Shown here piece by piece: positions 3,807 to 49,089 of a stretch of 52,306 nt of DNA (the stretch's first letter is position 1; every line of letters begins with the position of its first letter). The DNA is taken from the NCBI GenBank assembly GCA_019359415.1, contig JAHHHH010000052.1:1-52306 (forward strand), given 5' to 3'. The stretch is from Iphinoe sp. HA4291-MV1 (GTDB lineage: Bacteria > Cyanobacteriota > Cyanobacteriia > Cyanobacteriales > Nostocaceae). Under the pieces are notes generated by a model. That model was not told where the DNA came from, did not search any database, and saw only the letters and a program-made list of their open reading frames with translations. Position numbers and translations under genes: made by a program.

Positions 3807-3929
3807 GCATTTGCATCAACTATGACCTAACCCCCTAACCAACTTTTTTTAAGCGCATCTACATTAGACATAGTACGTAGCCAAGCTTTGTATTGCCAGT
3901 TAGGATGGCTTGGATATTAACAATGTAAA

Positions 3930-4574
3930 TTAACCAATTGGGGAAATCACTAACTGACTAAGGCGTTTTAAAATACTTAGAACATCGTACAATTCATTAT
4001 CAGGATTTCGGAGTTCAAAAACTTTAGAGGTACCATACTGTTGGATTTCTCCTTTAACTAATTTAAGAAATAGAAAGCTTCCTCCAGTGGTAATCATGCC
4101 AAAACTAGGCTTTTCTGGGTAAGGGTTTGCTAACATATAAGCTAGGATTTGAGCTAGTCCAGCTTCTACAGAAAAAGCTGCCTGTTTGGATTCAATCACC
4201 ATTACCCAAAATTGGTCTTTTAAAACCAAGGCATCCAAGCTACCCTTGATGACAATATCTTCATCTACTGCGGAAATTTCTATAGATTTTTCCGATTTAA
4301 CATAAAATGGAGATAAATAAAAATCACTAATAAATAAAAGTGGATCTAAGACTGACATTTTGACAACATTTTCAAGCATCGGTGGATACCTGAGTAAATT
4401 AAAATATCCTGCCTGAACTTTGTCTAATTGTTGTTTTTCTAGTTCAGTAATCTTAGGCAAATTATCTTGCCATTCAGGAAAAAATTGTTTATCCCGGATT
4501 AGCTTTAGTCCAAATAGAGTTTCTAATTCTAGTAAGGTGATATCTTTCGCTTGGATTATTTGCACCATAATCAA
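3930..4574 (-). CDS. PD-(D/E)XK-type putative restriction endonuclease-like protein
   Basis: The 214-residue protein matches the small cyanobacterial proteins usually labelled type I restriction endonuclease subunit R-like. A conserved Asp in IKGSLDALVLKD is followed by VMVIESKQAAFSV, giving the D...(E)xK signature of the PD-(D/E)XK nuclease fold. No helicase or methyltransferase genes accompany it, so a restriction role is not supported by context. It is often a stand-alone accessory gene. It runs opposite to its neighbours and sits between two copies of a 12-base direct repeat, which may mean it was inserted. The Met codons at the start (MIMVQ) allow a start three codons later. Confidence 0.7.
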   Translation of the reverse strand: MIMVQIIQAKDITLLELETLFGLKLIRDKQFFPEWQDNLPKITELEKQQLDKVQAGYFNLLRYPPMLENVVKMSVLDPLLFISDFYLSPFYVKSEKSIEISAVDEDIVIKGSLDALVLKDQFWVMVIESKQAAFSVEAGLAQILAYMLANPYPEKPSFGMITTGGSFLFLKLVKGEIQQYGTSKVFELRNPDNELYDVLSILKRLSQLVISPIG

Positions 4575-9661: not shown

Positions 9662-9710
9662 GAGTTAATTCATACGTGTCAACTTAAGCTGAAAACCTTG
9701 TAATTACATT

Positions 9711-9922
9711 CAGTAGACCGAAAAGATTTCTAGAAGGCTTACCATTGGGGCATTCTGGCGGATTGTATACAATCCGCCAGAATGCCCGTATCATCTGCGT
9801 TTTGAGCAATAGGGTTGTAGATGAGTTCTCCTGCTAAGGTAAGCGATCGCTCGACCCTGTGCCCAAAACATCGCCCCAAACCCTCATTCTTGCGTTGACT
9901 GACAAAAGTTTTCGGTCTACTG
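9711..9922. mobile_element. 212-bp MITE, copy 1
   Basis: Inverted ends CAGTAGACCGAAAA and TTTTCGGTCTACTG bound a 212-bp element without coding capacity. It is flanked by the 5-bp duplication ACATT (9706-9710 and 9923-9927). A perfect 40-bp palindrome, GGGCATTCTGGCGGATTGTA plus its complement, fills 9748-9787. The copy at 48453-48664 reads identical throughout, which implies recent movement. The transposase that moves it is not in the window. Confidence 0.92.
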
Positions 9923-10079
9923 ACATTACATCATGCCTTTATGCTTGCCTACAATTCTCGCTCTACCTACCCAGGTTTTGTCTGGGAACGGCTCTTGCGC
10001 CAGCGCTCCTTTCTCAATAGCCCAGACGCACTCGCGTTCGAGTACGCTGAACAGTACTGTGGTCTCACTCCTAACTCCC

Positions 10080-15390: not shown

Positions 15391-15404
15391 CGTAATCCTT
15401 TTGC

Positions 15405-15508
15405 GGCGTTGCATAATAGAGGGATGAATTGAGGTATTATTACTTCATGATTTAGAGTATAAGCAAATACCTGTATTTTCTTGATTCATCCCGCATTTAT
15501 GCAACGCC
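15405..15508. mobile_element. 104-bp MITE with GGCGTTGCATAA ends
   Basis: The left end GGCGTTGCATAATAGAGGGATGAAT and the right end ATTCATCCCGCATTTATGCAACGCC are inverted repeats with a few mismatches. The interior is AT-rich and non-coding. No clear target duplication was seen. The left 34 bases recur at 28215-28248 in reverse orientation. The element ends 50 bases before the ridA start and could carry part of its leader. Confidence 0.7.
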
Positions 15509-19278: not shown

Positions 19279-19416
19279 ACAAAACCGAGTTGTAGAAACA
19301 AAACGTATGTGAGCTAGAGACAGGGTATGGAACTGTAATCTAAAAGCTATTCAAGCCTCATCAAAGATAGTCAATTTTGAGTAGGTATAGCGAAAAGATG
19401 CTAGAATAGTCAATAT

Positions 19417-19627
19417 CAGTAGATCACAAAGTTTTTTAGAAGCCCTGCCACATCAGCATTCCACCAAAACACTCGGACACAATAAAAGAACCTATTAATC
19501 AACATTTCAGCCAATACCGTTAGTTGCCCCAAAGCGATCGCTCTTAAACTAAAGCTGTTTGTCTCCTTGTCAGCGAGGGCACAAACCCTCATTCTTACGT
19601 CAGTTTCGGAAAGTTTGTGATCTACTG
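19417..19627. mobile_element. 211-bp diverged relative of the 212-bp MITE
   Basis: The ends CAGTAGATCACAAA/TTTGTGATCTACTG match the pattern of the 212-bp MITE, and the element is flanked by a 5-bp duplication AATAT (19412-19416, 19628-19632). The interior shares blocks such as AGCGATCGCTC and CAAACCCTCATTCTT in the same order but lacks the 40-bp palindrome. This points to an older or different branch moved by the same kind of transposase. Confidence 0.82.
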
Positions 19628-19632
19628 AATAT

Positions 19633-28166: not shown

Positions 28167-28214
28167 CATTTTTTCTAATCTCAGTAGACTCACAGTATGG
28201 ACAATGCACAGTAT

Positions 28215-28248
28215 AATACCTCAATTCATCCCTCTATTATGCAACGCC
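28215..28248 (-). repeat. Solo MITE end matching 15405-15438
   Basis: AATACCTCAATTCATCCCTC, then TATTATGCAACGCC, is the exact reverse complement of the left end of the 104-bp MITE. The opposite end was not found nearby, so this is a solo or truncated copy, just beyond the NUDIX stop. Confidence 0.7.
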
Positions 28249-28254
28249 GATTTT

Positions 28255-48248: not shown

Positions 48249-49089
48249 ATGACTTTGACTTGCAAACAACTTCTACAAAACCATGCTCAAGCTTGGCACG
48301 AAGCAACTGTGCATCCCTTCCTTGAGCAGTGTAAATTAGGAACAATTCATCCTCGGCAATTTAACACATGGCTTGTGCAAGATTATCTGTTCGTTATCGA
48401 TTTGACACGGATGGTGGGACGATTACTGGCGATCGCACCTTCACACCATTTTCAGTAGACCGAAAAGATTTCTAGAAGGCTTACCATTGGGGCATTCTGG
48501 CGGATTGTATACAATCCGCCAGAATGCCCGTATCATCTGCGTTTTGAGCAATAGGGTTGTAGATGAGTTCTCCTGCTAAGGTAAGCGATCGCTCGACCCT
48601 GTGCCCAAAACATCGCCCCAAACCCTCATTCTTGCGTTGACTGACAAAAGTTTTCGGTCTACTGATTTTGATATTATACTGGCAGGACTAGCAGCACTTA
48701 AAGATGAACTCAATTGGTTTAAGGAAAAAGCAGCCCAACGACAGCTTAATCTTGATGTAGCAAAACAACAAACCTGTATAGAATACTGTGAATATATGCA
48801 TAGCCTTGTTGCAATGCCTTATCCAGTTCAAGCAACTGCATTTTGGGCAATTGAATTGGCATACAATCAAGGTTGGCAATTGCCTGGAGTCATGCCTAAA
48901 CTATACACTGAATTTGCAGACAAATGGGGAAATGCAGGTTTTACTGAATATGTAAAACTTTTAGAACATCAAGCTGATGAGGTATTGCAAACTGCTTCAG
49001 AAACTATTTCCCAGCAAGCGGAAGAAGCTTTTTTAAGGGTAGCAAAATTTGAGAAAGATTTTTGGCAGATGGCTTTTCATGCAGCATAG
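48249..49089 (+). pseudogene. tenA: TenA-family gene split by a MITE
   Basis: The first part (ATG 48249; CKQLLQNHAQAWHEATVHPF, WLVQDYLFVIDL) ends at the MITE, and the second resumes at 48668 (DIILAGLAALKDELNWFKEK, AMPYPVQATAFWAIELAYNQ) to the stop at 49089. Removing the 212-bp element and one ATTTT duplication joins APSHHF to DIILAG in frame, giving a complete protein of about 207 residues. TenA proteins recycle thiamine pyrimidine. This sequence seems closer to the TenA_E group than to the Cys-dependent TenA_C group, an inference. In this state the gene cannot make a normal product. Confidence 0.88.
48453..48664. mobile_element. 212-bp MITE, copy 2, inside tenA
   Basis: The sequence reads identical to 9711-9922, including CAGTAGACCGAAAA/TTTTCGGTCTACTG ends and the 40-bp central palindrome. 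The target duplication is ATTTT (48448-48452, 48665-48669). Total gain of 217 bp shifts the tenA frame by one base and brings in a stop. Confidence 0.93.

Follow-up and report, generated by a model that had tools for sequence, protein, structure and literature searches.

The DNA analysed here, referred to as the window, is a stretch of 52,306 bp that constitutes contig C66 of the Iphinoe sp. HA4291-MV1 assembly (G000; 7.36-Mb draft, 140 contigs) and contains two copies of a 212-bp repeated element, MITE-A. Copy 1 occupies positions 9711-9922 on the forward strand and is enclosed by the 5-bp target duplication ACATT (9706-9710 and 9923-9927, forward strand). Copy 2 (48453-48664, forward strand) lies within a gene of the TENA/THI-4 family and is enclosed by ATTTT (48448-48452 and 48665-48669, forward strand); the interrupted gene is represented by a 5' part at 48249-48452 and a 3' part at 48670-49089, both on the forward strand and both matching Pfam PF03070 (E 1.6e-9 and 6.5e-13, respectively). 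The first-pass annotation had described these copies, 38.7 kb apart, as identical over 212 bp, as flanked by different perfect 5-bp direct repeats, and as sharing a perfect 40-bp palindrome; the description proved accurate in every respect, and no base differs between the two. The ends of the element, CAGTAGACCGAAAA and TTTTCGGTCTACTG, form perfect 14-bp inverted repeats (in copy 1, 9711-9724 on the forward and 9909-9922 on the reverse strand), and the palindrome, which has 20-bp arms and no loop, is located at element positions 38-77 (9748-9787 in copy 1 and 48490-48529 in copy 2). As the longest open reading frame (ATG, GTG, or TTG start) wholly inside MITE-A comprises only 46 codons (46 aa), the element encodes no transposase. 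It thus displays the features by which a MITE is recognised: it is short and multicopy, carries terminal inverted repeats, generates a target duplication of constant length, and lacks a transposase gene.

The window contains 12 matches resembling the terminal inverted repeat, a number reached in 0 of 100 window shuffles. A sister element with a related interior, MITE-B (211 bp), is located at 19417-19627 on the forward strand between duplications of AATAT (19412-19416 and 19628-19632, forward strand); its ends, CAGTAGATCACAAA, are those of another ISH3 subgroup. MITE-B is present in the host in four complete, identical copies with the duplications AATAT, ACCTT, AAAAT, and ACAAT. A perfect 37-bp inverted repeat pair, the members of which are 12.8 kb apart, was also observed in the window at 15404-15440 and 28213-28249.

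Copy number, target sites, and age

The copy count in the host rests on a genome search with the 33-bp left end of MITE-A, which yielded 55 exact matches; no match had one or two mismatches, and the two that had three represent another subfamily. The fetched loci comprised 52 complete copies and three left halves that end contigs. These halves were paired with right halves by matching target duplications (C22/C29, AACAT; C57/C50, ACCCT; the two ends of C91, ATTGT), the AACAT pairing not being unique, as this 5-mer also occurs to the right of one complete copy whose flanks are unequal. With two further right halves, on C3 and C19, that remain unpaired, the family amounts to 57 copies, made up of the 52 complete ones, the three reassembled from contig-end halves, and these two right halves. 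All complete copies are exactly 212 bp long, and only 9 mismatches were found among them in 11,024 bases, all of them C-to-A changes at position 154, which splits MITE-A into two otherwise identical sub-lineages of 43 and 9 copies. A draft assembly that merges repeats could somewhat inflate this near-identity or hide variants; nevertheless, the variant at position 154 was kept.

Two contigs deserve separate mention. C91 (38.4 kb; loci L066 and L073) stops at both ends in the two halves of one MITE copy that share the duplication ATTGT, and it is therefore probably a circular replicon. In the 23-kb contig C115, five MITE-A copies form a local cluster where 0.17 would be expected (Poisson probability about 1e-6, or 1.6e-4 allowing for 140 contigs).

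Perfect 5-bp target duplications enclose 48 of the 52 complete copies, and all 48 conform to ANNNT. This pattern accounts for 8.2% of the 5-mers in the window, and the chance of 48 out of 48 is about 6e-53. The four complete copies with unequal flanks carry A...T on both sides in every case, as recombination between copies or an incorrect join would leave them. It may also be possible to parse the element as 214 bp with T...A ends and a 3-bp duplication; however, the 5-bp parse is simpler and agrees with the published ISH3 rule (see below). No two of the 52 copies share their flanks, which means that the repeat does not belong to a larger duplicated segment. An artefact in which one repeat was misplaced in many contigs during assembly might be imagined in a draft of 140 contigs, several of which end inside the element. 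However, different flanks with matching duplications at 48 of 52 copies are unexpected from misassembly, the contig-end halves pair by their duplications, and a variant base was retained in nine copies; such an explanation is hardly worth entertaining.

Comparison with related strains reveals sites from which the element is absent. The left flank of copy 2 matched four relatives; three of them (L225, L227, and L228) contain an uninterrupted gene with a single ATTTT at the empty site, and the fourth locus (L226) is uninformative in this respect. Copy 1 is nested in a separate dispersed repeat of approx. 97 bp (about 9671-9984 of the window) that occurs in several genomes of the genus. In two relatives, this paralogous repeat is uninterrupted (L267 and L268) and has a single target with a slightly different 5-mer. 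In a rough test on joined flanks, some of which were shorter than 600 bp, open frames of 300 nt or more contained 28 of the 52 sites and those of 600 nt or more 18, compared with 77% and 61%, respectively, of 2,000 random positions drawn from the window only. Insertions into open frames are thus rarer than random yet common, which fits a recent burst.

Folding of the element was considered as well. Both strands are predicted to fold strongly (z -8.9 and -7.9), and the interior is conserved across genera, as might be expected of a chromosomal element that acts as a regulatory hairpin or a structured RNA and was spread through gene conversion or under selection. However, the predicted fold derives largely from the 40-bp palindrome and the inverted ends, and none of the nine Rfam matches listed reaches the gathering score. 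Moreover, ANNNT duplications at 48 of 52 copies and empty sites in relatives denote insertion, and some copies break genes. A spread as functional RNA is therefore very improbable.

The distribution of the family outside the host bears on its age. Exact matches to the terminal inverted repeat number 129 in the host versus at most 10 in each of 40 other genomes searched. MITE-A-like matches were present in 15 of 60 genomes, the host included, with at most 13 candidates scored per genome; two separate scans scored 40 of 94 and 40 of 93 candidates, and the copy count was for this reason taken from the left-end search. Among the candidates scored, no long match outside the host exceeds 79% (over 206 positions), with up to 92% for shorter pieces, and relatives possess only diverged members; with at most 13 scored per genome, they may carry more diverged copies than those listed. 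The near-identity of the host copies, together with the few terminal matches and the diverged members in relatives, shows that the burst is recent; within the genomes covered, it is limited to the host lineage. The first-pass annotation had called the family recently active and had proposed counting its copies and searching related strains for empty sites. Both steps bear the claim out: 57 copies exhibit near-zero divergence, the flanking 5-mers match at 48 of 52 complete copies, and the site of copy 2 is empty in three relatives. Neither of the two outcomes that the annotation had named as contrary to its claim occurred, since most copies have matching 5-mers and no larger duplication encloses the repeat.

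ISH3 elements and the probable driver of transposition

The passages on the ISH3 family in PMC2266710 place it in the IS4 superfamily and give it an end consensus of CRGT and 5-bp duplications bounded by A and T; they also state a length of 1225-1500 bp and describe the family as 'so far restricted to archaea'. MITE-A starts with CAGTAGACC..., which fits the CRGT consensus. The presence of ISH3-type ends in the host led to a 1,849-bp element of Brasilonema sp. CT11 (G005:C351:53760-55608) with 26-bp identical ends and the duplication ACCGT. It encodes a 378-aa transposase (P0001), to which the NCBIfam model NF033541 (transpos_ISH3; cut-off 225) assigns 233.9 bits and which carries, at 287, YRLRFGIESSYR, corresponding to the ISH3 motif Y-(2)-R-(3)-E-(3)-R. 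More complete ISH3 elements were found in Tolypothrix PCC 7601, Trichormus variabilis 0441, and genome contigs. In particular, a search of eight loci, six of which gave ends and in which equal target duplications were required, identified complete ISH3 elements with MITE-A ends at L128 (ACCGT), L129 (AAAGT), L139 (AAATT), and L140 (ACATT); the left end of copy 1 is that of L128, L140, and others. Further ISH3 elements with the same ends are L164 (AAAAT), L168 (AATTT), and L173-L175 (AAATT). Of 44 loci, 29 were scanned by script, which located ends in 21 and a perfect target duplication in 8 of the 21, one being the CT11 element again. Departures from ANNNT also occur among ISH3-type elements or ends, namely AGAAA at L141, CTCAG at L231, TATTT on one side of L163, and TTAAT on the sole readable side of L202. 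The ISH3 elements measured here are mostly 1.45-1.85 kb long.

Near the 3' end of the ISH3 transposase gene, 186-215 bp from the right end of the element, there is often a stretch that resembles the terminal inverted repeat. It was considered as a possible seed of MITEs; as it accumulates both synonymous and coding substitutions from one IS to the next, it was instead treated as resulting from the protein sequence.

The host itself provides traces of the family. No intact ISH3 transposase is present in the host assembly by either search used, the protein search returning one weak 43-residue remnant with two stops and the family search none. Contig C63 begins with a right end of the ISH3 type that is 88% identical to L192 over 124 bp, and the start of C90 carries an end that resembles that of L230 by eye; the flank of the latter, AGAGC, does not conform to ANNNT. 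A draft would lose a multi-copy IS at contig edges formed by repeats, and these ISH3-like ends at contig edges suggest that an intact ISH3 copy presumably exists in the host. The first-pass annotation had noted that no autonomous parent lies within the window, which is correct, and had proposed movement in trans, which agrees with a gene-less element bearing target duplications at 48 of 52 copies. Its suggestion that the genome be searched for a full IS with the same termini and a transposase was answered only in part: such an IS was not found in the host assembly, whereas complete ISH3 elements exist in relatives and make an ISH3-family IS the likely driver.

Taken together, MITE-A most likely represents a recent MITE burst mobilised in trans by an ISH3-family transposase, and we assign this reading a probability of about 0.88. 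It builds on directly observed features of the insertions (ends, target duplications, target rule, copy number, near-identity, and empty sites) and on the occurrence in relatives of ISH3 elements that share these ends and, for the most part, the target rule; that ISH3 acts as the driver in this particular host is what we infer from them. In the mechanism proposed, the ISH3 transposase would bind the approx. 14-20 bp ends, and the element would be cut out or copied by the transposase and joined at ANNNT sites to cuts staggered by 5 bp, the repair of which would give rise to the 5-bp duplication. The MITE could instead have been driven by a yet undiscovered IS, perhaps a divergent ISH3 or a member of a different family, with a MITE-like subterminal sequence, in which case the ISH3 elements found would merely have similar ends. 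Such a driver would account for the lack of a match between the MITE interiors and any ISH3 interior compared, for the host assembly being without a transposase of the family, and for subterminal blocks that are kept across genera, as if needed for binding. However, known ISH3 elements agree with the MITE in their first 14-20 bp, in a duplication length of 5 bp, and in the ANNNT rule, and the host does contain ISH3-like ends. Moreover, in a family search of 60 genomes, none of the five loci that were end-searched gave an element whose subterminal sequence is MITE-like, convincing ends being recognised by eye in two of the five. A driver of another kind is thus unlikely, and an ISH3-family transposase remains the preferred candidate.

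The interior and the palindrome

When 20 bp were trimmed from each end, six MITE types compared with 27 ISH3 elements gave best local scores of 23-28, no better than the shuffled maxima, which average 25-28. An origin of MITE-A by simple internal deletion of an ISH3 element is thus not supported for the 27 ISs compared. Among the MITE interiors themselves, 13 of 15 pairs exceed all 200 shuffles; the pairs A-C and B-F do not. By these alignments, the interior is evidently a separate lineage of approx. 211 bp, found in several genera, that keeps only the ends of ISH3. Its length varies little: members measure 211-213 bp at L043, L092, L095, L097, L104, and L107 and 216 bp at L099; longer relatives of 233-238 bp occur at L091, L096, L106, and L145, and shorter matches at L090 (195 bp) and L105 (203 bp). 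Phages contained no match to the element. Two plasmid records matched 61% and 29% of it, and one of these, a plasmid of Nostoc sp. C052 (L145), contains a 237-bp relative in which both ends are present and the flanks are unequal.

MITE-A and MITE-B carry this interior under two sets of ends. Their interiors align with a score of 71 (shuffled maximum 50.5 in 500), and CAAACCCTCATTCTT is common to both, 31 bp from the right end in each. The CAGTAGATCACAAA ends of MITE-B are also found on a 1,457-bp ISH3 element of G014 (L230, duplication AATAT), the transposase of which is 58% identical to P0001. Right ends were recognised by subterminal sequence, with the ends themselves excluded and a score of at least 36 (shuffled maximum 24 in 300); of the 20 found, 17 are of the first type or close variants and three of the second type, two of these three being single ends. 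A tree of the 20 right ends is weak on the number of end switches, and one change suffices.

Several other structures in the host involve ISH3-like or MITE-like sequence. A 255-bp element at L069:232-486 (C48:37131-37385) has ends and subterminal DNA that look ISH3-like on either side; its flanks are unequal, and it is apparently a true ISH3 deletion derivative. A related MITE at L218:574-888 (G000:C126) is split by a stretch of approx. 100 bp that resembles an inverted-repeat element. At L067:527-565 (G000:C99), a 39-bp element consists of little beyond two facing CAGTAGATCACAAAGTTT ends with the duplication ATAGT and is perhaps a minimal mobile unit. Finally, two inverted ISH3 right-end remnants of approx. 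150 bp (L088:1656-1810 and 3912-4062; G000:C115) surround 2.1 kb of DNA in which three forward ORFs exceed 150 aa, and AAATT adjoins each end; this unusual arrangement is possibly composite.

The palindrome differs among members of the lineage. At L091, L092, and L093, the corresponding site holds a palindrome of 8 bp (4-bp arms) and the left side differs. The arms reach 9 bp at L090 and 20 bp in the burst element; L094 has the left side of L090 and a changed centre, with a perfect arm of 2. The palindrome therefore looks recently derived. Template switching is a mechanism that converts quasi-palindromes to perfect ones, and the arm series of 4, 9, and 20 bp fits a stepwise conversion of this kind.

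It is conceivable, though rather doubtful, that the interior, rather than being a broken IS, is an independent parasite 'chassis' in Nostocales that has acquired, or followed by change, ends belonging to two or more ISH3 subgroups (CAGTAGACCGAAAA and CAGTAGATCACAAA) while its length and subterminal blocks are kept. In one lineage, template switching would have made a quasi-palindrome into the perfect 40-bp hairpin; as the same lineage exploded in number, the hairpin might boost mobility.

Significance and comparison with known systems

This is a real and very recent MITE burst, and what takes it beyond the routine is an interior shared under two sets of ends and a series of palindromes. A reading of the window alone does not reveal the strict ANNNT target, the non-ISH3 interior, the sister MITE-B, or the derived palindrome. 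A transposase of the ISH3 type, known mainly from archaea, becomes connected with a burst of very small passenger elements in a cyanobacterium that is multicellular, and some of the insertions in this burst break genes. Because the copies hardly differ and both related elements and empty sites persist in relatives, the family offers a clean case of a MITE interior that is maintained while its ends follow different transposases; it also suits asking whether a growing palindrome alters mobility.

A text search for the letters of the MITE-A terminal inverted repeat returned only a paper on trout RAG genes. PMC9208149 mentions MITE, ISH3, and cyanobacteria together; the 12 of 14 passages considered in it describe no such element, none of them being a passage on MITEs. 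MITE-A resembles the ISH3 family in that its ends start with CAGT, its 5-bp duplications are bounded by A and T, and same-ended relatives encode an ISH3 transposase; it differs in being 212 bp long, without a transposase gene, and unrelated in its interior. In type II MITEs of eukaryotes, the driving transposon is matched at the ends only and the interior is of other origin. MITE-A likewise matches its likely driver at the ends only; in contrast, it is prokaryotic and has a 5-bp ANNNT target. Among cyanobacterial MITEs, Nezha, which Zhou and colleagues reportedly described in 2008, and the MITEs of Anabaena PCC 7120 are said to be short, gene-less elements of Nostocales with inverted ends, and it is in this description that they resemble MITE-A. 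Chunjie, a MITE of Geobacter uraniireducens, varies in size between 178 and 235 bp and is present in tens of copies, according to the passages on it in PMC10969869. It is comparable to MITE-A in size and number of copies; the MITE-A copies are instead uniformly 212 bp long and nearly identical.
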